From a virus: 28,366 bases of DNA. Under the pieces are notes generated by a model. The model was not told where the DNA came from, searched no databases, and saw nothing but the letters and a program-made list of their open reading frames with translations. Within the stretch, counting starts at the first letter, position 1. Each line of letters starts with the position of its first letter. The position numbers and the translations under genes are program-made. Where the stretch lies: positions 1 to 28,366 of IMG/VR virus record IMGVR_UViG_3300040960_000478. One strand, 5' to 3'. Of the stretch, positions 970 to 21,237 are shown piece after piece.

Positions 970-1635
970 TCAGTTGGCAATGTACTCTTCCTTCTGCGCG
1001 GCACCTCCAATAGAGAAAGCGCCATATTTTCCAATCTTGACATCTTCCCAAAGAGCGTCATCATAGACTTTGTAGCCTGTGATCCACCCTTCCATGTCAG
1101 ATTGAATACCTAATGCTGCACAAATATCTTTAGTGATTGGGAACGAGTGGATAATCTGTCCTACTTGCTCACCTTCGTGCATCAATTTCCCTACTCGTAC
1201 ATTCTCCATAAACTCATTAATTGCTTTATGAAGTGTTTCTGTACGAATGATGTCTCCTTGACGATCAACTACCAAATCACCTTTGTAGGTAGTTACTGAA
1301 GCCCATCCGTAGATGATACGCTGTTCCTCATCTACCTTAATAATCTTGAAGTCGTCTTGAGTTTTATCTGATTTGTTCATAATCTCTGCTACTACTGCTC
1401 GTAGGGCTTCTACCATGCGATCTTCAGTGATCTCTTCTTCGTCATCGTCATCCTCGTACTCCATGTGCTCAAGGTATTCCTTGTGGGTAGCACCGGGGAC
1501 GTAGTAGGCTTGACCATCAAGATCGTATACATGGATTTTACCTTCTAGCCCGATAGCACGAGAGCGTACCTTAGCAGACAGGGGATCACTGAATACATCG
1601 AAGTCAGTTTGGAATTTCTCAATTAATTTATTCAT
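970..1635 (-). CDS. Prohead protease, XkdF-like (Peptidase S78-type), tail out of frame
   Basis: A 221-residue head-maturation protease that would cut scaffold and capsid proteins during prohead assembly. It has 'IIYGWASVTTYKGDLVVDRQGD' near residue 107 and 'FMENVRVGKLMHEGEQVG' near residue 142, the catalytic-region signature of XkdF-like serine proteases, and ends with 'GAFSIGGAAQKEEYIAN'. Family members normally continue with a strand ending in (L/V)TE(I/V)SLVDRPANP. Here that segment is present but in the +1 frame, after the UGA at 970-972, and leads without a stop into the scaffold. An acidic run (YEDDDDEEE) near residue 60 is a likely linker. The start overlaps the stop of the upstream gene (ATGA). 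A programmed +1 shift, a natural break or an assembly indel would all fit. Confidence 0.8.
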   Translation of the reverse strand: MNKLIEKFQTDFDVFSDPLSAKVRSRAIGLEGKIHVYDLDGQAYYVPGATHKEYLEHMEYEDDDDEEEITEDRMVEALRAVVAEIMNKSDKTQDDFKIIKVDEEQRIIYGWASVTTYKGDLVVDRQGDIIRTETLHKAINEFMENVRVGKLMHEGEQVGQIIHSFPITKDICAALGIQSDMEGWITGYKVYDDALWEDVKIGKYGAFSIGGAAQKEEYIAN

Positions 1636-5190: not shown

Positions 5191-5604
5191 TTACGGCCAG
5201 TCAGGTAGATCGTATAAATTCGCTGGGATCGGGTCCATTGCCTCAATTACATCAGATGCTGCGCGGATAGCTGCAATTTGATTCCAGATCACTTCACCCG
5301 CTGCCCATGCAGCCGCTTCCTCCGGCGTCCAGTTGGCCTCACCCTTCTTGGCAAGTTGTGCCGCTTGGGCTGTCAGGTTGCGTTGCTTCCACTCAGGGCA
5401 GATGGCAATGATGCGGCGATAGGCTTCGGCTTTTACTTCTTGAACTGTGATTACTCGTTCTTCGACTGTGATTGTTTCACCTGCCTCAATGGCTTCTTGG
5501 ATCATCTGATAATGGCGATTACCTTGCGCTTCTGGCACAGTTATTTCAACGCCGTCTATTGTAGCCTTATAATGTCCGTTGAGCAGTTTTGTTATTTGTT
5601 TCAT
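5191..5604 (-). CDS. Possible tail-fibre assembly or fibre-associated protein
   Basis: A 137-residue protein with an N-terminal strand region ('YKATIDGVEITVPEAQGNRHYQMIQEAI'), a helical middle and a C-terminus 'AIRAASDVIEAMDPIPANLYDLPDWP'. The last part resembles C-termini of small proteins encoded next to phage tail fibres, some of which act as assembly chaperones. It sits directly downstream of the fibre gene (11 bases apart). The DNA from here to about 8725 looks more GC-rich than the head genes, suggesting a swapped fibre region. The chaperone role is only a suggestion from position. Confidence 0.6.
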   Translation of the reverse strand: MKQITKLLNGHYKATIDGVEITVPEAQGNRHYQMIQEAIEAGETITVEERVITVQEVKAEAYRRIIAICPEWKQRNLTAQAAQLAKKGEANWTPEEAAAWAAGEVIWNQIAAIRAASDVIEAMDPIPANLYDLPDWP

Positions 5605-5614
5605 TTGTCGCTCC

Positions 5615-6796
5615 TTATAACTCTGCGTCTGCTGTATAGGAAATGCCTACAGTTCCGTTTGCTCCAGAGAATTGCGCGTTCATTCCAATACTGCTATCTG
5701 TAACGGCTATAAAATATGGACCTGAAGAAACATTGACTGAACTAAGAACAGTTAGCGCTGTTGTTGGAAGAGATCGCATAACTACTGGCAGTGCAGTAGA
5801 TGTTCCCATAAATACGTTTAAGGCGGTTTGACCTTGCATAAAAAGACGGCCTGTTTGATAATACCTCTGACACTTTGCTAACTCGTCTTCTATTCTGCGA
5901 GGGACAAAATCAGTAGCAGTGTCGCCGGGTTCTAGTTTGATTTGGGCAATGTCGATAGTAAATGTGGTGTTAAGCGGCAGCTGAAAAGAAAGATTTAGAT
6001 TGTCGTTGTTATTTGTTCCGAGCGTTTTTCCACTAATTGAAGGTAGCGTTGTTGTAAATGTGTATTTCGCCCAAGACGTTGTTAGAGATGCTGTTCCAAA
6101 ACCTGTAGCTGTGCTAGAACTAGGCGACCCCCCAGTTCCAAACTTTTGAGCTACACCTGCGGTCATATTGTATAAACTAGAGCATTTTGCCCAAAAACTT
6201 AGAGTTGCAGTTTGCCCCGCAAGTGTTCTTACGCCTTCGATATGATGCTCAATATTGCAAAACGTTGCGCCGCTTCCTGCAACACTTTGATCATATCTAA
6301 AAAAATACTCTGGCTCATTAGGTACGTCTGTTTGTCCGAGTGTAAATGCTTGGCGACTAACTGTACGACTTGCACCAGTGCCATTTTGGAACGCAACCCA
6401 ACGATCAGCTGTGTACGCTCCAGAACCAAAATTACTAAAACTCGTCCCACGCTGCCAAATATCAAAGTTGCCGTTGATAATGAGGTTTTCTCTCGGCTGA
6501 ACAATATCGTCGAATGTCGCTGTTACATACACAACAGCAGACCCAGACAGGTTAATCGCTGCGTCTGAGTTGCTGCTTTCAGTGACAGTGCGGCTCAGAG
6601 TGGTTCCAGACGCCGTATAGGTGCCTGTGCCGATCTCCCAAGCCGCACCGTCTTCAATGACGTAACGCACGGTCTCTCCGTCAGCCACGCCAGCATCAGC
6701 GAATGACTGATAGCCGCTTTCAGCAGAGCCAAGCGTGATAGTTCCCGTGCCAGTAGTGGCAGTGCCCATCTTGGCGCGGTTGACGAGTTTAACCAT
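5615..6796 (-). CDS. Tail fibre / receptor-binding protein with jelly-roll domain
   Basis: A 393-residue fibre. Residues 1-95 form a repeat-rich attachment domain ('[18 protein letters not shown]', '[11 protein letters not shown]', '[17 protein letters not shown]') common to many phage fibres. From about residue 100 '[17 protein letters not shown]' and 'YTADRW' begin a carbohydrate-binding-like jelly roll that ends near residue 285 with '[18 protein letters not shown]'. The '[12 protein letters not shown]' segment then links to a final C-terminal domain of about 80 residues that would be the tip. Fibres of this design bind host surface sugars. It is followed by a putative fibre-associated gene. 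Confidence is high for virion fibre, low for the receptor. Confidence 0.85.
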
Positions 6797-6810: not shown

Positions 6811-7182
6811 TTAGGCAGGGTCAGGGATACCAATAGTGAAGGAGGCAAGTGCAAAGGAGTTACCAGAAGTCACTGCTTGGGAGGATGAGAGGGAGCCAGT
6901 AGCGAGGAGACGACTATTAACAGTATCTACAATAGCGTAATGGCTTGCTGTGCCTGTGCCCGTAACACTACCATCCGTAATAGCAGCTACAGTAACCTCA
7001 CGACCACCACCAGAGCGGTCAGCAGGTGCGCCAATGCTCAGAGATGTGGAGTTACCCAATGTGCTAGTGGAAGTAGCGTCTGTGTAGTCTGTAGCCTCTT
7101 GCGAGGTGATGTGGATTGCGTTTGCTTCGGTGTCTAGGACCGTAAGGCCATTATCAAACACCCGATCATTCAATGTAGCCAT
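6811..7182 (-). CDS. Small phage structural protein, unknown
   Basis: A 123-residue beta-rich protein with low charge: 'NDRVFDNGLTVLDTEANAIHI' at the N-terminus, then 'GNSTSLSIGAPADRSGGGREVTV' and 'ITDGSVTGTGTASHYAIVDT'. Such short proteins often sit between fibre genes in marine phages and are taken as virion components. Its ATG at 7182 is directly preceded by a 48-base copy of the terminase gene's end (7180-7227), including the TAATG junction. This gene therefore probably once lay immediately downstream of the large terminase, and the cassette between them arrived later. Function not recognised. Confidence 0.65.
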   Translation of the reverse strand: MATLNDRVFDNGLTVLDTEANAIHITSQEATDYTDATSTSTLGNSTSLSIGAPADRSGGGREVTVAAITDGSVTGTGTASHYAIVDTVNSRLLATGSLSSSQAVTSGNSFALASFTIGIPDPA

Positions 7183-7227
7183 TATCTTAGCCCTTTAGAA
7201 TTGGAGTATACTAGTTTCAGTTGTGGT
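7180..7227 (-). repeat. 48-bp direct repeat, left copy (orphan terminase tail)
   Basis: Identical over 48 bases to 8723-8770. Read leftward it encodes the last residues of the large terminase (LVYSNSKGLR, stop TAA) and the start of the following gene, but here no terminase gene lies upstream. It marks one edge of a three-gene cassette. Confidence 0.95.
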
Positions 7228-7283
7228 AGCCTATCGCATCCGCGATGTGGTTTTCCTGCCAGAAAAGATGATCTTGCTTATGT

Positions 7284-7451
7284 TCACTCAAGGTCTCCGT
7301 CAGGGCGGTCTTCAATCAAGGCAACAGCGTCTTCTGCGGTGTTTGCGTTGACGTTGCAGAAAACAAGGTGCTTTTTACCAGTTTCGTTGTCAGTCAGCAT
7401 CCAGCCGTTGTCCGTGCCTTCAACCCGTTGTGCGGTGTATTTCGGTTCCAT
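7284..7451 (-). CDS. Small hypothetical protein, 55 residues
   Basis: A short gene with an excellent ribosome-binding site (AAGGAGG, 8 bases before the ATG at 7451). The product begins MEPKYTAQRVEGTDNGWML and ends 'ALIEDRPDGDLE'. It has mixed charge, no membrane segment and one Cys. It resembles short single-domain beta proteins encoded near phage fibres, but I do not recognise a family. It is the last gene of the cassette bracketed by the 48-bp repeats. The 56 bases between its stop and the left repeat hold a small inverted repeat (ATCGC-GGAT-GCGAT on the minus strand) without a T tract. Confidence 0.7.
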   Translation of the reverse strand: MEPKYTAQRVEGTDNGWMLTDNETGKKHLVFCNVNANTAEDAVALIEDRPDGDLE

Positions 7452-7463
7452 CTGTTTGCCTCC

Positions 7464-8276
7464 TTACAGCAGGGTAATTTGAAAATCAAGGTCTCCGTTT
7501 GAGCGATTTTCGATATAAAGTGTTCCACTGGTTCCGGCAGTGCCAACAGTAACCGAGCCGTCCGTACCTGTAGTGCCTGTAAGCGCACCAGAATTGTTCA
7601 TTTCAAAAGAATTACCTGCGTAAATTGGAGTTTGATGACCGGGGCTATCTCCAAAATCTACAGTTACAAAACCGCTGAAGTTATTAATCTGAGGAAAACT
7701 CCCTTGCGCTTCACAAGTAACCCAAAGAAGTCCGCCTTGCCGAGAAGGAAATGTTAGTTCAGCTACAGCATCATCTGCGATGGTTACTTGAAGTGCGTTA
7801 ATCTCATTGCCGTTAAGAACCACAGTGCCTTCATTGATTATTACAATACCTTCCGAGTCGATGCGGAGGCGTTCGGAACCATCCACCGAAAACTGCATAC
7901 TGTCGTCGGCGTGTCTATATATAATGCTCCCGACAAAACTACTGTCGGCGTCACCGAAAGCCAGATAACTTCTTGCTGTGGTGTTACCCGCGCACTGCAC
8001 TCGGAGGAATGCGTCATCTGTAGAAGCGGACCCCGTTGAGCGGACCCTAATAGATGGGTCTGTCTCGGACGCTACGTCAAGCGCGTATGAGGGGTTACTC
8101 GTCCCAATGCCCACGTCCCCGCTAACATAAAGGTCGCCAGTAACCGTGTCGGTTTGCAAAGCTCCTGTTGGCCCTGTTGCGCCTTGCTGCCCCACCTGCG
8201 AAAGCGCGACCGAAAGGCTGACCGAAGTCATATCGACAGTAAATGTAGTTCCAGATACAGAAACAGAGTACGTCAT
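7464..8276 (-). CDS. Tail-fibre / appendage protein with collagen-like turn and GIGT motif
   Basis: A 270-residue virion protein. After a beta N-terminus comes a very short collagen-like segment 'GQQGATGPTG' (about residues 28-37), then 'GDLYVSGDVGIGTSNPSYALDV', a motif widespread in phage fibres and spikes. Next are beta-strand repeats ('SMQFSVDGSERLRIDSEG') and a Gly/Thr-rich C-terminal domain ('GTTGTDGSVTVGTAGTSGTLYI'). It starts at 8276 overlapping the stop of the upstream gene by one base. Together with its neighbours it forms a fibre cassette that seems to have been inserted as a unit. Receptor role inferred. Confidence 0.75.
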   Translation of the reverse strand: MTYSVSVSGTTFTVDMTSVSLSVALSQVGQQGATGPTGALQTDTVTGDLYVSGDVGIGTSNPSYALDVASETDPSIRVRSTGSASTDDAFLRVQCAGNTTARSYLAFGDADSSFVGSIIYRHADDSMQFSVDGSERLRIDSEGIVIINEGTVVLNGNEINALQVTIADDAVAELTFPSRQGGLLWVTCEAQGSFPQINNFSGFVTVDFGDSPGHQTPIYAGNSFEMNNSGALTGTTGTDGSVTVGTAGTSGTLYIENRSNGDLDFQITLL

Positions 8277-8725
8277 TAGCTACTTTCCACCGGGTTATAG
8301 CGGACCTCAACCAAGCCCCGCACAGGAACGAAAATCTGCTGGGCATCCCCAACACCCGTGTCTGCTACACTCAAAGCGAAGAACCCATAGACCGGATCGT
8401 CAGGGGTTGGCTGAACAGCCCAAGTGTCACAAAGGTCATCAGGAATAACAACCTTGAACGTATTGTCAGACACAGTGTCGTCGATGATTGTCAGCGTTGT
8501 GACCGTTGGCGTGTTTGGGTCTTCTTCGGTTGGGGGTACTTCAAGATCACCCGCCTCGTTAGCAGCCTCCGCAACCTTAGCTGTGATTGTGTAACCTGTA
8601 AGATTGGACAGCCACTGTAGTGTAAATGTCAAGTGGATTTGCTCACCCTTGGCGACGGACACGATAACAGAGCCGTCATCGGTTATTACATCTGTAGTCT
8701 TTGCGCGGATTGGAGTGCGAGGCAT
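8276..8725 (-). CDS. Phage fibre/baseplate-associated protein, beta-rich
   Basis: A 149-residue protein with 'GEQIHLTFTLQWLSNLTGYTIT' near residue 27, a proline-rich acidic spacer (PPTEEDPNTP) and a C-terminus 'QQIFVPVRGLVEVRYNPVE'. The layout recalls BppU-like Ig modules that precede fibre genes in marine phages. Its ATG overlaps the terminase stop (TAATG at 8723-8727), so translation is probably coupled to the terminase. The start codon lies inside the right copy of the 48-bp repeat. First gene of the inserted cassette. Function not demonstrated by the sequence. Confidence 0.65.
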   Translation of the reverse strand: MPRTPIRAKTTDVITDDGSVIVSVAKGEQIHLTFTLQWLSNLTGYTITAKVAEAANEAGDLEVPPTEEDPNTPTVTTLTIIDDTVSDNTFKVVIPDDLCDTWAVQPTPDDPVYGFFALSVADTGVGDAQQIFVPVRGLVEVRYNPVESS

Positions 8726-8770
8726 TATCTTAGCCCTTTAGAATTGGAGTATACTAGTTTCAGTTGTGGT
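8723..8770 (-). repeat. 48-bp direct repeat, right copy (end of terminase gene)
   Basis: Identical to 7180-7227. This copy is in its natural place: it encodes the terminase C-terminus and the TAATG overlap with the following gene. The two copies start 1543 bases apart. Confidence 0.95.
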
Positions 8771-10116
8771 TTTGCGTAGCCCTTAAGCATGAGGTCCGTT
8801 AAAGCCCAAACCATAGCATCGTATCTGTCAGGAGACTTGTGTTTGCCTAGTGGCTCATATGTGGTCATCTGTGTCTCAAGCTCTGTCAGAGGAGCCTCAC
8901 AGTCTCTCACATGGAAGACCTTACCCTGCTCATAGAGGGCACTTACAGGTTCCGCTCTGGCGATCTTAGCGGTACTAGCATGTACACCCTTGAGGGGTAG
9001 GTTCTCATCAATAGTCTTGAAGAGGCTTGGTATGAGGTCTTTACCTTGGTTGCTCTCGTATACGATACGACTACACTCAAATTCGTGGTAAAGAGAAACT
9101 ACCTTATTGGCCCATGTTTCTGGTGAACCCTTGAAGGTGTAATCACCAAGGATATAAGCCTTACCCTGTTCACATATGCCAGCTACAACAATACCAGTGT
9201 TATCTGATTCTACGTTGGAGGATACGGCAGGGTCTACAGCTACAACCTTCCTAATAAGGGGTGGTAGTTCTGAGGAGGTAATCTGACAGTTGTCGATCAT
9301 GTCAGCAGTCCAGAGAGCGCCTTCATTCTCTGTTAGGACTTCAGCATAAAGTTCCTGCCTACCAAGGCGAGTGCCCTCATACTGGGTTTTAACCGCCTCA
9401 AGGTAAGTATCTGCAAGGTTGGCTGCATTATCAAAGGTGGACCCCCTAGCGATAATAGTCTTAGGGTCTGCCATAATCTTGCGTAGTAGCACAGTCGATT
9501 TAGGAGTTGTTGCGATAAAGACTTGTGGATGCTTACCAAGGCGAAGGCAGAATTGGGCCATATCCCAAGTTTCTTGGTCCTTGTTCCAAGCGCAAAGCTC
9601 ATCAGCAGATAAAAACTCGAATTGTGGCCCTCGTAGACGCTCTGGTTCCTCTGCGGAGAACGCTTCTACCTTAGCTACAACATCTGCGTCTTTTCCAGTC
9701 TCTACTCCATTTTTCCACCAGAAAAGGGTTCTTTTAGTTGGGGACCAAGTTGGCATCCCAATGTGTTTTCCCCTTTTTGTTTTGTCGTGGGGAGAGCAAC
9801 AAGCAAGAATACCTGACTCCCCCTTTACAAAAACTTTTTCGATGTCACTGTTTGTAGCGCAGACAATAGCACCACGCTTCTTACCAGATTTGACTTGTGC
9901 TCTTACCCACTCTGCATTTGCGCGGGTCTTTCCCCAACCACGTCCAGCTAGAGCTAGAAATGTGTTCCAATTACCTTCAGGTGGAATTTGCTCAGGTCGC
10001 GCCCAGAATGACCAATCTTTTTGTAACTCTTCTAGCTGTGTCTTAGTCAGACTAGAGAGTGCAGCTTTAACCTCTTCGTCAGGTAACTCTCTAAGTTTAG
10101 CCGCTGTCAGGGTCAT
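8725..10116 (-). CDS. terL: Terminase large subunit (Terminase_6 / GTA-like)
   Basis: A 463-residue DNA-packaging motor. The ATPase domain has Walker A 'AGRGWGKT' (57-64), Walker B 'FEFLSADE' with D172/E173, and the coupling motif 'IATTP' (201-205). The nuclease domain has the acidic 'VVAVDPAVS' (D295), 'YESNQGKD' in the middle and 'RYDAMVWALTDL' near the C-terminus, giving the expected acidic metal-binding set. The 'LAGRGxGKTR.AEWVR' context resembles rhodobacterial gene-transfer-agent and related terminases. The length is typical. Its start overlaps the small-subunit stop by 4 bases, and its last codons are duplicated at 7180-7227. Fully intact. Confidence 0.95.
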   Translation of the reverse strand: MTLTAAKLRELPDEEVKAALSSLTKTQLEELQKDWSFWARPEQIPPEGNWNTFLALAGRGWGKTRANAEWVRAQVKSGKKRGAIVCATNSDIEKVFVKGESGILACCSPHDKTKRGKHIGMPTWSPTKRTLFWWKNGVETGKDADVVAKVEAFSAEEPERLRGPQFEFLSADELCAWNKDQETWDMAQFCLRLGKHPQVFIATTPKSTVLLRKIMADPKTIIARGSTFDNAANLADTYLEAVKTQYEGTRLGRQELYAEVLTENEGALWTADMIDNCQITSSELPPLIRKVVAVDPAVSSNVESDNTGIVVAGICEQGKAYILGDYTFKGSPETWANKVVSLYHEFECSRIVYESNQGKDLIPSLFKTIDENLPLKGVHASTAKIARAEPVSALYEQGKVFHVRDCEAPLTELETQMTTYEPLGKHKSPDRYDAMVWALTDLMLKGYAKPQLKLVYSNSKGLR

Positions 10117-10517
10117 TCTTCCTCAGTGTCCTTACCTAATAGTTTCATCAAGGAATTAACAGCACTCTCAGCTTCTTCCTCTTCAGTACCCACTTCTTGA
10201 GTTTGCTCTGTAGATTTGGGACTCCAGCCACCATGACTACGAAGATAGAGTTCTTGGGATTTCCATGTAACCGGATTGTCTACATCACCATTAAGAGCCT
10301 GATCTACAACTCGACTACCAATCTTTTCAGTAATGTCTGCACGAGTGGAGTAGATGTCTTTACCGTATTTTTTGTAAAAAGTCGTCATTGACGCCGGACT
10401 CCAAGCCATATGCTGTATAGATTGGAACACGTCTTTAATAGGCACACCAGCAGCAATCTGTTGACGCACTTTCTTCCCGATTTCAGGGTTGTATTCTAAA
10501 CCGTGCTTAGGTGGCAT
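10113..10517 (-). CDS. terS: Probable terminase small subunit
   Basis: A 134-residue protein that would recognise phage DNA and load it on the large subunit. The N-terminal half has two short helices compatible with a helix-turn-helix ('EIGKKVRQQIAAGVPIKDVFQSI' then 'SPASMTTFYKKYGKDI'). The middle is helical and the C-terminus is acidic (EEEEAES... DTEEE), as in many small terminases that contact the large subunit. It directly precedes and overlaps the large terminase (ATGA-type, 4 bases) and overlaps the HNH gene's end by 22 bases. The call depends mostly on position and domain layout. Confidence 0.75.
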   Translation of the reverse strand: MPPKHGLEYNPEIGKKVRQQIAAGVPIKDVFQSIQHMAWSPASMTTFYKKYGKDIYSTRADITEKIGSRVVDQALNGDVDNPVTWKSQELYLRSHGGWSPKSTEQTQEVGTEEEEAESAVNSLMKLLGKDTEEE

Positions 10518-10954
10518 GTTTTGTTACTCTTCGATTGATTGACCTCTGCTGGGAGGACTTGTAAGTTCCAAGGTACGTGCAGCCCACACACGTCTTTGCC
10601 CTGAAGCGGTACGATGTGATCTACGTGGTATTGGTCACCAGTAACTACCTCACAATCCCTAGCATGAGCGTAGATGTCTTTAATCTGGTCTAGGTGCTCT
10701 TGGGTAAGCCATTCAGGGGTAGCTTGCAGTTTCTTGGCTCTGCGCTTGGCTACCCTAGCTACATTATCAGACTTCTTGTTCCTGTACCTGTTCTTCTCAT
10801 AGTCCAAGTAATACTGTCTGTTCCTAGAGTAGTAGTCCTTGTTGGTCTTAACCCTACAAGATTTGCACCTTGGCTGTAAACCATCTTTCCTAGATTTACA
10901 TTTACCAAACTCAGAAACTGACTTCTTACTTTTGCAGTAACTACAATACTTCAT
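10496..10954 (-). CDS. HNH endonuclease with N-terminal zinc ribbon
   Basis: A 152-residue nuclease. C4, C7, C30 and C33 form a CxxC...CxxC zinc ribbon; a basic helical linker follows; the C-terminal HNH core is 'YHVDHIVPLQGKDVCGLHVPWNLQVLP' ending 'NQSKSNK', with the DH pair, the N of WNL and the terminal N-x-x-K typical of HNH enzymes. HNH genes next to terminase often help cut DNA during packaging; it could also be a free-standing homing enzyme. I start it at 10954 because AGAGAAGAGAG lies just before that ATG; a longer frame to 11032 would read through a structured hairpin. First gene of the leftward operon. Confidence 0.88.
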   Translation of the reverse strand: MKYCSYCKSKKSVSEFGKCKSRKDGLQPRCKSCRVKTNKDYYSRNRQYYLDYEKNRYRNKKSDNVARVAKRRAKKLQATPEWLTQEHLDQIKDIYAHARDCEVVTGDQYHVDHIVPLQGKDVCGLHVPWNLQVLPAEVNQSKSNKTCHLSTV

Positions 10955-10995
10955 ATCTCTCTTCTCTCTGTTTCTCTCTGTGTGTTTGTTAGAAT

Positions 10996-11027
10996 GGGCC
11001 GACCGAGTTTCGAACCTCAGCCAGCCC
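10996..11027 (-). other. 12-bp hairpin resembling a tRNA acceptor/T-arm minihelix
   Basis: On the minus strand GGGCTGGCTGAG pairs fully with CTCGGTCGGCCC (12 pairs, three of them G-U) around the loop GTTCGAAA. On the plus strand the three G-U pairs would be A-C mismatches, so the structure belongs to leftward RNA. The stem length (7+5), the T-loop-like TTCGAAA and an A right after the 3' side resemble a tRNA minihelix, except that the loop has one extra G. It lies in the leader of the HNH/terminase transcript. No T tract follows, so it is not a usual terminator. Confidence 0.7.
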
Positions 11028-11159
11028 CACAAGATGCCCAGAGAGAGTAAGCATCCTGATGATAGTTACCCCATAGCTTCAAACTACAGGGTCTGTGCTT
11101 CTTCAGCGACAGAACTCTAATAAACAATAACTACACCAATAATTGACAATGATCAGATC

Positions 11160-11264
11160 AGACTCTTACGATTGAATCTTAAGTTTTACTCTTAAGTATG
11201 ATTAATTCTTAATGAGTATTATTAACTGGTAGGTTGAAGTCTTAAGATTCAATCGTAAGAGTCT
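11160..11264. repeat. 24-bp perfect inverted repeat around an AT-rich spacer
   Basis: The left arm 11160-11183 (AGACTCTTACGATT...CTTAAG) is the exact reverse complement of 11241-11264, with a 57-base AT-rich spacer containing further CTTAAG and TTAAT motifs. A diverged copy of the same 24-mer (20 of 24 identical) is at 16398-16421. It could be a binding site for a dimeric phage protein, an origin element or a transcript stem. Confidence 0.9.
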
Positions 11265-11276
11265 TAAGGGGTTCTA

Positions 11277-11300
11277 TATATATATAAGTTCATTTTTTCA
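11277..11300 (-). promoter_or_regulatory. Leftward phage promoter motif (AAAATGAACTTATATA)
   Basis: The minus strand reads AAAAAATGAACTTATATATA here. The 16-base core (plus-strand 11281-11296) is identical to cores at 16362-16378 and 21191-21207, both upstream of operons. No sigma-70 -35 box is visible at the right distance, suggesting a phage-specific factor. It points to the HNH/terminase/structural operon. Confidence 0.7.
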
Positions 11301-11604
11301 AGTTTTACTCATGAAATTCTGAACTTTTTTACATGTAGTTGAAATATAACGATTCTTTTTTCTTGTAGTTTTGCTTGTGATAGTGTAGCGATCAACCTAT
11401 AGCTGTAGTTAGAATCATTAGCACACTCTTGAGTTAGGTCTTATGGGTTCTTATGAGTTGTGCCAAAGTGTCGCACCTTACCCATTTGAGATTTTTTCTT
11501 TTGGATTCTGAGGCGTCTACCCTGTGACCCAAAAGCCACACCCCAGAATCTATAGGGTCCCACAGTGCAATTAACCCTTGACAAGCCCTCCTGACCACTA
11601 GGTA

Positions 11605-11690
11605 GTTCAACATTAAACGATTCGCATGAGTGTGATCACAAAAGTAGTTTAACATTAAACTAAATCTTAAGAAATGGTTTAACATTAAAC
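11605..11690. promoter_or_regulatory. Three operator-like palindromes GTTTAACATTAAAC
   Basis: Near-identical 14-mers at 11605-11618 (one mismatch: GTTCAACATTAAAC), 11647-11660 and 11677-11690. Each is a GTTTAA/TTAAAC palindrome. Start-to-start spacing is 42 and 30 bases, near 4 and 3 helical turns, so a repressor could bind them on one face. A TTGACA box at 11578-11583 lies just before the first site. Confidence 0.7.
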
Positions 11691-11850
11691 TAATATCGCA
11701 AGGTGTTGTAATCATGCGACATTCATGCGATTAATTCATGGGATTGAAAGAAAAAACTTGACAGAGGCGATTCGGTTCGCAGCACCCCTAGTTGAGAATC
11801 ACTCGCAAGTAGCAACAGCAAAACGCCATGCTAGTTGAGAACGATTCGCA
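11622..11850. repeat. Cluster of TCGCA/TGCGA motifs, iteron-like
   Basis: TCGCA occurs at 11622, 11696, 11777, 11803 and 11846, and its complement TGCGA at 11715 and 11726; one more TCGCA is at 11471. Several are in larger repeats: CATGCGA twice (11713, 11724), CGATTCGCA twice (11618, 11842). Seven copies in 229 bases is far above chance. Could be initiator or regulator sites. Confidence 0.6.
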
Positions 11851-15354: not shown

Positions 15355-15577
15355 AGAACAGCACAAAAGGGTTAATGAGTTGGCGCTTGAGGTGTACCAA
15401 CTTTTCCTAGAGAAGTACCCTGAAGATATGGTACACGAAGGAGAAGAAGTTGGGCTTGTAGGTACCGCTTACGGGTACATGCTTATCCTAGCTACTCTGG
15501 GGTATAAACCTGATGAGATGGGCCAAGACGCTGTAGAGGGTGTGAAGAAAATTATGGAGTTGGTGGAAAATGACTGA
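15347..15577 (+). CDS. Duplicated gene A, first copy (hypothetical helical protein)
   Basis: 76 residues: MTEEQHKRVNELALEVYQLFLEKY, then 'EEVGLVGTAYGYMLILATLGYKPDEMGQDAVEGVKKI'. It is paralogous to the gene at 16495 (shared EEQxKxVN, LEK, EEVxLxGxxYGYML-L-LGY, G-DA-GGV-K). I use ATG 15347, with AGGAGA 9 bases upstream; ATG 15338 overlaps that site. Together with the next gene it forms a pair repeated 1.15 kb later. Family unknown. Confidence 0.7.
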   Translation: MTEEQHKRVNELALEVYQLFLEKYPEDMVHEGEEVGLVGTAYGYMLILATLGYKPDEMGQDAVEGVKKIMELVEND

Positions 15578-15779
15578 AGAAACTGTAGGTATCATTGGTG
15601 TAGAGGAAGTAGAAGAGCATGAGGATGGTTCAGCTACCTATAATTTCCACTTTGATGAAGATACTAAAAGCCAATTAGTAAAGCTAGGTATTGAGTTTGC
15701 CGTCTATTGTGCTGCTTATGGTTGGGATATTCAAGATGCACTGGATAGCTTGAAACGAGAGGGTAATACGGGTGACTGA
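15570..15779 (+). CDS. Duplicated gene B, first copy (hypothetical)
   Basis: 69 residues: MTEETVGIIGVEEVEEHEDGS, 'ATYNFHFDEDTKSQLVKLGIEF', 'YCAAYGWDIQDALDSLK'. It is about 70% identical by eye to the gene at 16775. The beta N-terminus and helical C-terminus look like a small folded domain of an unnamed phage family. Its end overlaps the GTG start of the sigma-like gene (GTGACTGA), exactly as the second copy overlaps the primase gene. Confidence 0.7.
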   Translation: MTEETVGIIGVEEVEEHEDGSATYNFHFDEDTKSQLVKLGIEFAVYCAAYGWDIQDALDSLKREGNTGD

Positions 15780-16347: not shown

Positions 16348-16361
16348 AGTGTGAAGCCTCG

Positions 16362-16384
16362 GAAAATGAACTTATATAACTATA
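16362..16384 (+). promoter_or_regulatory. Phage promoter motif upstream of second gene pair and primase
   Basis: GAAAATGAACTTATATA at 16362-16378 followed by ACTATA. It shares 17 bases exactly with 21191-21207 and 16 with the leftward copy near 11281. CCCCCTCTAAGAAAGACTC downstream is also aligned with the leftward copy's leader. Confidence 0.7.
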
Positions 16385-16397
16385 CCCCCTCTAAGAA

Positions 16398-16480
16398 AGA
16401 CTCGTAAGAATTAATCTTAAGAATTATCTCTTAGTATTAATAATCATACTAAGATTAGAATCTTAAGTATTAATCTTAAG
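16398..16480. repeat. TCTTAAG repeat region in the leader, related to the 11160 inverted repeat
   Basis: 16398-16421 matches the 24-mer of 11160-11183 at 20 of 24 positions. TTAATCTTAAG recurs at 16411-16421 and 16470-16480, GAATCTTAAG at 16458-16467, and TCTTAGTAT/ATACTAAGA form a 9-bp inverted repeat around 16428-16454. Very AT-rich. It could be an operator, an origin element or a structured leader. Confidence 0.75.
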
Positions 16481-16494
16481 AAGGAGACTGAAGA

Positions 16495-16782
16495 ATGGAT
16501 GAAGAACAGACTAAGACAGTGAATGTGGTAGCTACAGAGGTCTTTAGGGAGTTGCTTGAGAAGCATAAGGATGAACTACCTACAAAGCATGAAGAAGTGT
16601 CTCTTATGGGTAGTTGTTATGGTTACATGCTGTTCTTAGAGCTTCTTGGCTATAACATGTCCGCTGTAGGTAAGGATGCTAGTGGTGGTGTAGCTAAACT
16701 TAGGGAGATGATTTCTGTAGAAGACGAACTACCAGATGACATCTATGAATCAGACTCACTAGGATTTACACCACATGACTGA
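16495..16782 (+). CDS. Duplicated gene A, second copy, with extra tail
   Basis: 95 residues: MDEEQTKTVNVVATEVFRELLEK, 'EEVSLMGSCYGYMLFLELLGY', 'VGKDASGGVAKLREM', then a 20-residue acidic extension 'VEDELPDDIYESDSLGFTPHD' that the first copy (15347) lacks. Strong RBS AAGGAGACTGAAGA. Overlaps its partner by 8 bases. Probably under the promoter at 16362. Function unknown. Confidence 0.7.
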   Translation: MDEEQTKTVNVVATEVFRELLEKHKDELPTKHEEVSLMGSCYGYMLFLELLGYNMSAVGKDASGGVAKLREMISVEDELPDDIYESDSLGFTPHD

Positions 16783-16984
16783 AGATACAGTAGGAATTAT
16801 CGGAGTTGAGGAGGTAGTTGAGCATGAGGATGGCTCTGCTACGTATACCTTCCACTTTGAAGATGAGACAAGGGATAAGATTGCAGAGATAGGGCTTGAG
16901 TTTATCTTGTACTGTGCTATCTACAAGTGGGACATACAGGATGCCCTAGAATCACTTAAGAAGGATACTGACATTAGTGACTGA
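16775..16984 (+). CDS. Duplicated gene B, second copy
   Basis: 69 residues: MTEDTVGIIGVEEVVEHEDGS, 'ATYTFHFEDETRDKIAEIGLEF', 'YCAIYKWDIQDALESLK'. Same length and layout as the copy at 15570, with most changes conservative, which suggests both copies are under selection. Overlaps the primase-helicase GTG start. Confidence 0.7.
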   Translation: MTEDTVGIIGVEEVVEHEDGSATYTFHFEDETRDKIAEIGLEFILYCAIYKWDIQDALESLKKDTDISD

Positions 16985-21137: not shown

Positions 21138-21190
21138 GTCTTTGGTGCAACACTGATTCGGAAGTTACACTTTTTGTGAGTAAAGTCCGA

Positions 21191-21213
21191 GAAAATGAAC
21201 TTATATACTTATA
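21191..21213 (+). promoter_or_regulatory. Phage promoter motif upstream of the SSB operon
   Basis: GAAAATGAACTTATATA at 21191-21207, then CTTATAC. Identical for 17 bases to 16362-16378; both have TTTGTGA about 17-20 bases before the core. It lies 25 bases before the SSB ATG region and gives abundant SSB its own promoter. Confidence 0.7.
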
Positions 21214-21237
21214 CAGAGGGCAACAGGAGAAACACAC

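Follow-up and report, generated by a model that had tools for sequence, protein, structure and literature searches.

The window is a stretch of viral DNA of 28,366 nucleotides (IMG/VR record IMGVR_UViG_3300040960_000478), and the genes around its terminase are all encoded by the minus strand. They run as follows: HNH gene, probable terS, terL, 149-aa gene, 270-aa fibre-like gene, 55-aa gene, hd123, and tail fibre. The HNH/endonuclease VII-like gene is located at 10496–11032 (PHROG 1035, E = 3.6e-24); the probable small terminase gene, terS, at 10113–10517 was assigned only by its position upstream of terL, and terL itself, which encodes the terminase large subunit, at 8725–10116 by Pfam Terminase_6N/6C. 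Three genes come next, referred to here as the cassette: a 149-aa gene (8276–8725) that starts exactly at the terL TAATG, a gene for a 270-aa tail-fibre-like protein (7464–8276; PHROG 9942 tail fiber, E = 3e-9), and a 55-aa gene (7284–7451). They are followed by hd123 (6811–7182), whose 123-aa product has a weak PHROG 240 head protein match, and by a tail fibre gene (5615–6796; PHROG 4492, E = 1.2e-72). After the 55-aa gene, a 24-codon frame with a TTG start (7217–7291) can be read from the sequence; no homologue of it was found, and it might just possibly be the truncated 5′ end of a donor gene. The GC content of the cassette, 49 to 52% versus 43 to 51% in the listed neighbouring genes, shows no clear separation, and the AlphaFold model of the 149-aa protein (mean pLDDT of 48.8) was too poor for use.

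The cassette is bracketed by a 48-bp direct repeat. Its copies, at 7180–7227 and 8723–8770, are identical at 48 of 48 positions, whereas the bases flanking each copy differ; the chance expectation for such a 48-nt pair is ∼9e-21. The right copy, of which terL is the source, comprises the final 46 nt of terL including the stop codon and the remainder of the next ATG, since the terL TAATG overlaps the start of the gene at 8276–8725. The left copy, which the 24-codon frame enters, is an orphan terL tail on the same minus strand; it also ends in TAATG, exactly at the hd123 ATG, with no terL preceding it, and holds an SD-like AAAGGG for hd123. A sequence-only reading of this DNA had described a perfect 48-bp direct repeat, with the right copy made of the terL end plus the next start codon and the left copy of the same end without terL, placed exactly before the gene at 7182, and this description is accurate in each respect. 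Another IMG/VR contig (L024), the window's twin and 99.87% identical to it across 10,294 bases, also has both copies, at an unchanged spacing of 1543 nt. A single-assembly artefact is therefore unlikely.

We compared 51 terL loci, leaving out window twins and counting each locus once; these formed 35 clusters at 95% junction identity. In 15 of the 51 loci, representing 8 of the 35 junction clusters, terL led directly into hd123 via a TAATG overlap (L002, L019–L022, L040–L043, L060, L067, L070, L076, L082, and L099), and each of these 15 had one terL tail. The empty-site loci closest to the window were L022 and L002; in the part compared, from the terL end through hd123 to the fibre start, these two do not differ from each other, and they may represent a single virus. 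Between L022 and the window, terL residues 263–463 were 99% identical and hd123 98%; in 50-nt bins, identity was 82 to 98% over the last 375 nt of the window terL and mostly 96 to 100% in hd123. The empty site in relatives means that hd123 originally came right after terL, in the ancestral order terL-hd123, and that genes 7284–8725 were added. These data show that the fibre module, three genes long, entered a phage of the terL-hd123 order at the overlap of those two genes, and that this insertion left behind the 48-bp repeat, a displaced terL tail. The proposal, made from the sequence alone, that the gene at 7182 once followed terL and that genes 7284–8725 entered between them is thus supported by the empty-site relatives, which were recovered by searching for terL directly followed by a homologue of 6811–7182. 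Nor is a second copy general: among the 51 loci it was confined to the window and three other junction types, and none of the other second-tail loci holds the window's cassette.

The same junctions indicate why a second tail would persist. An SD-like AAAGG(G/A) lies inside the terL coding end in 15/15 direct terL|hd123 junctions, and in all 15 the hd123 start codon overlaps the terL stop. The comparison shows that the predicted ribosome-binding site of hd123 is inside the terL tail, a property of the repeat that is absent from the earlier account. An insertion at the overlap would part hd123 from this site, so a duplicate tail would be needed, and the orphan tail would be kept by selection because only two-tail products keep both neighbours translatable. 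We also considered that the repeat might be an old functional element, with two copies maintained for a regulatory or recombination role. It does carry an SD-like sequence used by the downstream gene, but the single tails of the 15 direct relatives, a promoter scan that gave no promoter-like site in 6900–9000, and the lack of an unusual RNA fold over 7180–7290 (z = 0.78) make such an element very improbable.

As to the inserted genes, their description as a three-gene fibre cassette holds for 7464–8276; the 149-aa and 55-aa genes gave no functional match in Pfam or PHROG and were assigned to the module because both travel with fibre genes. Homologues of 8276–8725 (L030 and L031) adjoin a fibre gene, not terL. 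The gene after the 149-aa homologue in L031 is a fibre gene that begins like 7464–8276, and a similar start occurs in L030. Relatives of the fibre C-terminus and of the 55-aa gene, the latter just after the former, are adjacent in six loci (L110–L115). Parts of the module therefore co-occur elsewhere, in none of those loci directly after terL. Searches with the 149-aa gene, as a single protein and as a three-row alignment, returned only L030, L031, and the twin L024, and in genome contigs 0 of 201 pattern matches were confirmed. The 55-aa gene gave no phage match and its alignment no new locus, a 22-aa peptide read after the 55-aa gene had no match in phages, and the searches with the 149-aa gene did not find a donor phage in which terL is followed by the cassette without an orphan tail. 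The module probably gives the phage another receptor-binding fibre beside the pre-existing one encoded downstream of hd123. It follows from the sequence that, if the two 48-bp copies recombined, the exact empty site would be regenerated.

Pfam and PHROG searches identified no nuclease, transposase, or integrase among the three cassette genes, and no terminal inverted repeats were found at the cassette ends. These results bear on a transposon- or integrase-type insertion, in which the repeat would be a target-site duplication or a pair of att sites. Integrative elements in gene ends are known to leave foreign DNA flanked by a direct repeat of the gene 3′ end, and the foreign genes of the window are flanked in just this way. 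Nonetheless, with no transposase or integrase and no inverted ends, a repeat of 48 nt that is long for a target duplication, and flanking tails that are divergent in a related junction (L018, below), we give this explanation very little credence.

We then examined all 51 terL loci for a second tail by local alignment of the terL tail against downstream DNA, with shuffles. The window scored 92, L018 80, L015 61, and L004 and L005 37 each, whereas the remaining 46 loci scored ≤27 and no shuffle scored >29. Two of these, L013 and L007 (score of 27), were slightly above their own 40 shuffles but inside the overall null range (up to 29). Three junction types other than that of the window thus have a second terL tail: L018/L069 (L069 being an additional, incomplete contig with the L018 arrangement), L004/L005, and L015. 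In L018/L069 and L004/L005, the displaced tail comes after an inserted HNH/endonuclease VII-like gene (PHROG 1035), whereas L015 has a tandem second tail with no inserted gene between the copies. Counted back from the end of the terL stop, the displaced tail begins at 46 nt in the window and at 48 nt in L004, an agreement that comprises two events only and is blurred by a few bases of microhomology; the length of the displaced tail is ∼135 nt in L018 and ∼60 nt in L015. In the window, L018/L069, and L004/L005, it is the native tail that is displaced downstream of the insert.

The L018 junction could be compared with the empty site of L070. Their terS regions were mostly 97 to 100% identical (one 90-nt bin, 78%), and the stretch from the displaced tail into hd123 mostly 94 to 100%, with 98% in the displaced tail itself, whereas terL between those flanks was mostly 44 to 84% identical. 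As terS and the displaced tail of L018 are L070-like and its terL is not, an incoming terL with its HNH gene replaced the native terL, while the native tail stayed. The terL tails flanking the L018 insert are divergent, the functional one being of the foreign type, in contrast to the identical tails of the window. Whereas terL of L018 was replaced between L070-like flanks, the window shows only a mosaic identity of terL: its C-terminal (nuclease) half is 83 to 97% identical in L002 and 90 to 100% identical in L004 up to ∼170 nt before the end, but its N-terminal half is mostly 42 to 75% identical to both. The sequence-only reading did not include the finding that such scars recur at this junction together with HNH genes, and a scar that recurs beside endonuclease genes suggests a shared cut-and-repair route.

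The PHROG 1035 family of the window gene 10496–11032 is found after terL in L004/L005, L014, and L018 as well; Pfam gave no match above the cut-off for these HNH/endonuclease VII-like proteins. The endonuclease gene lies inside the inserted segment in L018 and L004 but not in the window cassette, and L014 has an HNH gene after terL with no second tail. The twin contig L024 carries an extra HNH gene (713–1144) at the overlap of two head-region genes, which the window (970–1064) lacks; this presence/absence polymorphism in near-identical phages left no duplicated tail. Since so close a twin has an HNH gene that the window does not, the family is mobile in the window's lineage. When HNH loci of this group were tested for flanking duplicates, L004 and L018 exceeded all shuffles, but L014, L060, and L007 did not. 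In a wider test, beyond this group, of 18 HNH relatives taken from 206 matched phage records, 17 of them testable, flanking duplicates above all 100 shuffles were seen in 2 (L160 and L170), both inspected as alignments only. In L170 (Streptomyces phage Riptide), an imperfect 43-nt duplicate (813–855 and 1470–1512) lies on both sides of the HNH gene; it looks like a gene start and is possibly a mirror image, with a duplicated 5′ end. Among terL loci in genome contigs, L132, L142, L151, and L155 exceeded their 20 shuffles. The signals of L142 and L155 were marginal, and that of L151 is a short degenerate tandem repeat. A distant terL in L132, an alphaproteobacterial MAG, ends in 23 nt (5208–5230) that recur, with 21 of 23 positions matching, at 6140–6162, ∼0.9 kb downstream of terL and after a pair of frames, which we take to resemble a nucleotidyltransferase/HEPN pair.

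For the window, we marginally favor insertion of the fibre module at terL|hd123 by a break, one-sided repair, and illegitimate closure, with the tail kept for its ribosome-binding site. The break would have occurred in or near the terL tail of the recipient, and its plausible agent is an HNH endonuclease from the family that is present around terL in this phage group. Repair would then have copied terL and the following genes from a co-infecting phage, with homology used on the terL side only. The far end of the copied segment would have been joined to the broken terL tail of the recipient, illegitimately because the donor is proposed to have had no matching DNA on that side, and the native tail would stay downstream and serve hd123 translation. 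The insertion is solid, whereas the HNH-driven break is something that we infer, because the cassette has no nuclease, its two tails match at every base, and the searches turned up no donor. Identical tails with no divergent donor tail, unlike L018 and perhaps L004, speak against the HNH route and fit a recent or within-lineage duplication as well.

A sizable share of the probability, though clearly the lesser one, falls to an endonuclease-free event, either plain illegitimate insertion or a template switch in the course of replication, in which the module would have entered at the start codon and the 48 bp of target would have been duplicated by chance and kept for the hd123 ribosome-binding site. 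The two window copies are identical to each other and depart from L022 at two shared positions, which fits such an event, as does the nuclease-free cassette, and the need for a ribosome-binding site would alone explain why only tail-duplicating insertions survived; the retention argument needs no special enzyme and so serves this explanation equally. However, it leaves the HNH gene in two of the three other scar types unexplained, as well as the terL replacement in L018. Returning to break and one-sided repair, a broader version would make the terL end a dedicated docking site, where an HNH enzyme cuts the tail, the cassette brings a functional terL tail of its own and so rebuilds terL, the old tail becomes the ribosome-binding site of the next gene, and donor-linked cargo enters; we regard this generalization as rather unlikely. 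If it is true, terL-linked cargo, including whole fibre modules, would ride in, and endonuclease homing would drive the exchange of host-range genes.

Several known systems resemble parts of this locus. In the PeSL mobile cassettes of T4-like phages, repeats at gene junctions accompany the shuffling of non-core modules; the window differs in having no promoter-like site and a repeat that is terL coding DNA. Fungal mobile ORFs leave a displaced native C-terminus, according to the accessible text of one report (PMC3630166). In the mitochondrial mORFs treated there (Allomyces atp6; Glomus atp6, atp9, cox2, and nad3), an insert with an endonuclease gene provides the target gene with a new end and pushes the original 3′ end downstream, where it persists as a duplicate, a layout shared by L018 and L004. 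Unlike in those mORFs, the target here is phage terL instead of mitochondrial genes, the enzymes are HNH and not LAGLIDADG/GIY-YIG, and the window carries fibre genes with no endonuclease and with identical tails. Phage HEGs are described as clustering near terminase genes (PMC10448857), and T4 intron homing with one-sided homology as leading to illegitimate repair at microhomology (PMC2988022). The free-standing homing endonucleases of T4-type phages and ICP1 are likewise HNH genes that cluster at terminase and other essential genes, and their one-sided events lead to illegitimate repair at microhomology; gene-tail duplication is not described in the available sections of these papers (PMC2988022, PMC10448857), and the cargo here can be fibre genes. 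The accessible text on SegB of phage T6 (PMC13096335) reports that this free-standing homing endonuclease remodels nearby genes by break repair, with microhomology near the junction; there, resident genes are amplified in tandem, whereas here a foreign module was imported.

A duplicated terminase tail flanking an insert was not described in the accessible parts of the open literature, subscription papers aside. Phage genomes are mosaics whose single joining events are usually too old to be read, but in this case the unoccupied site, the inserted module, its scar, and further independent scars at that junction are all visible. If the HNH link is true, phages' trade in receptor-binding genes would be tied to selfish endonucleases, and events of this kind could be recognized in any phage genome by a simple signature, a gene tail orphaned downstream of an insert. 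Judged by terL, the closest isolate is Roseobacter phage CRP-6 (56% identity), so a marine Roseobacter-type host appears likely for the window phage. CRP-6 has the order terL-portal-hd123-fibre, and its genome is described as highly mosaic in the available text of its report (PMC6918029).

Elsewhere in the window, a 24-nt perfect inverted repeat is formed by 11160–11183 and 11241–11264, and GAATCTTAAG-type repeats related to it occur in 11160–11264 and 16398–16482. A AAAATGAACTTATATA-type element is present three times (11275–11316, 16351–16385, and 21172–21214), with one copy on the minus strand, and its appearance suggests a shared promoter. In 11600–11693, a GTTTAACATTAAAC-like near-palindrome occurs three times. 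Finally, two 69-aa frames (15570–15779 and 16775–16984) are 81% identical over their first 95 nt and are likely the result of a gene duplication.
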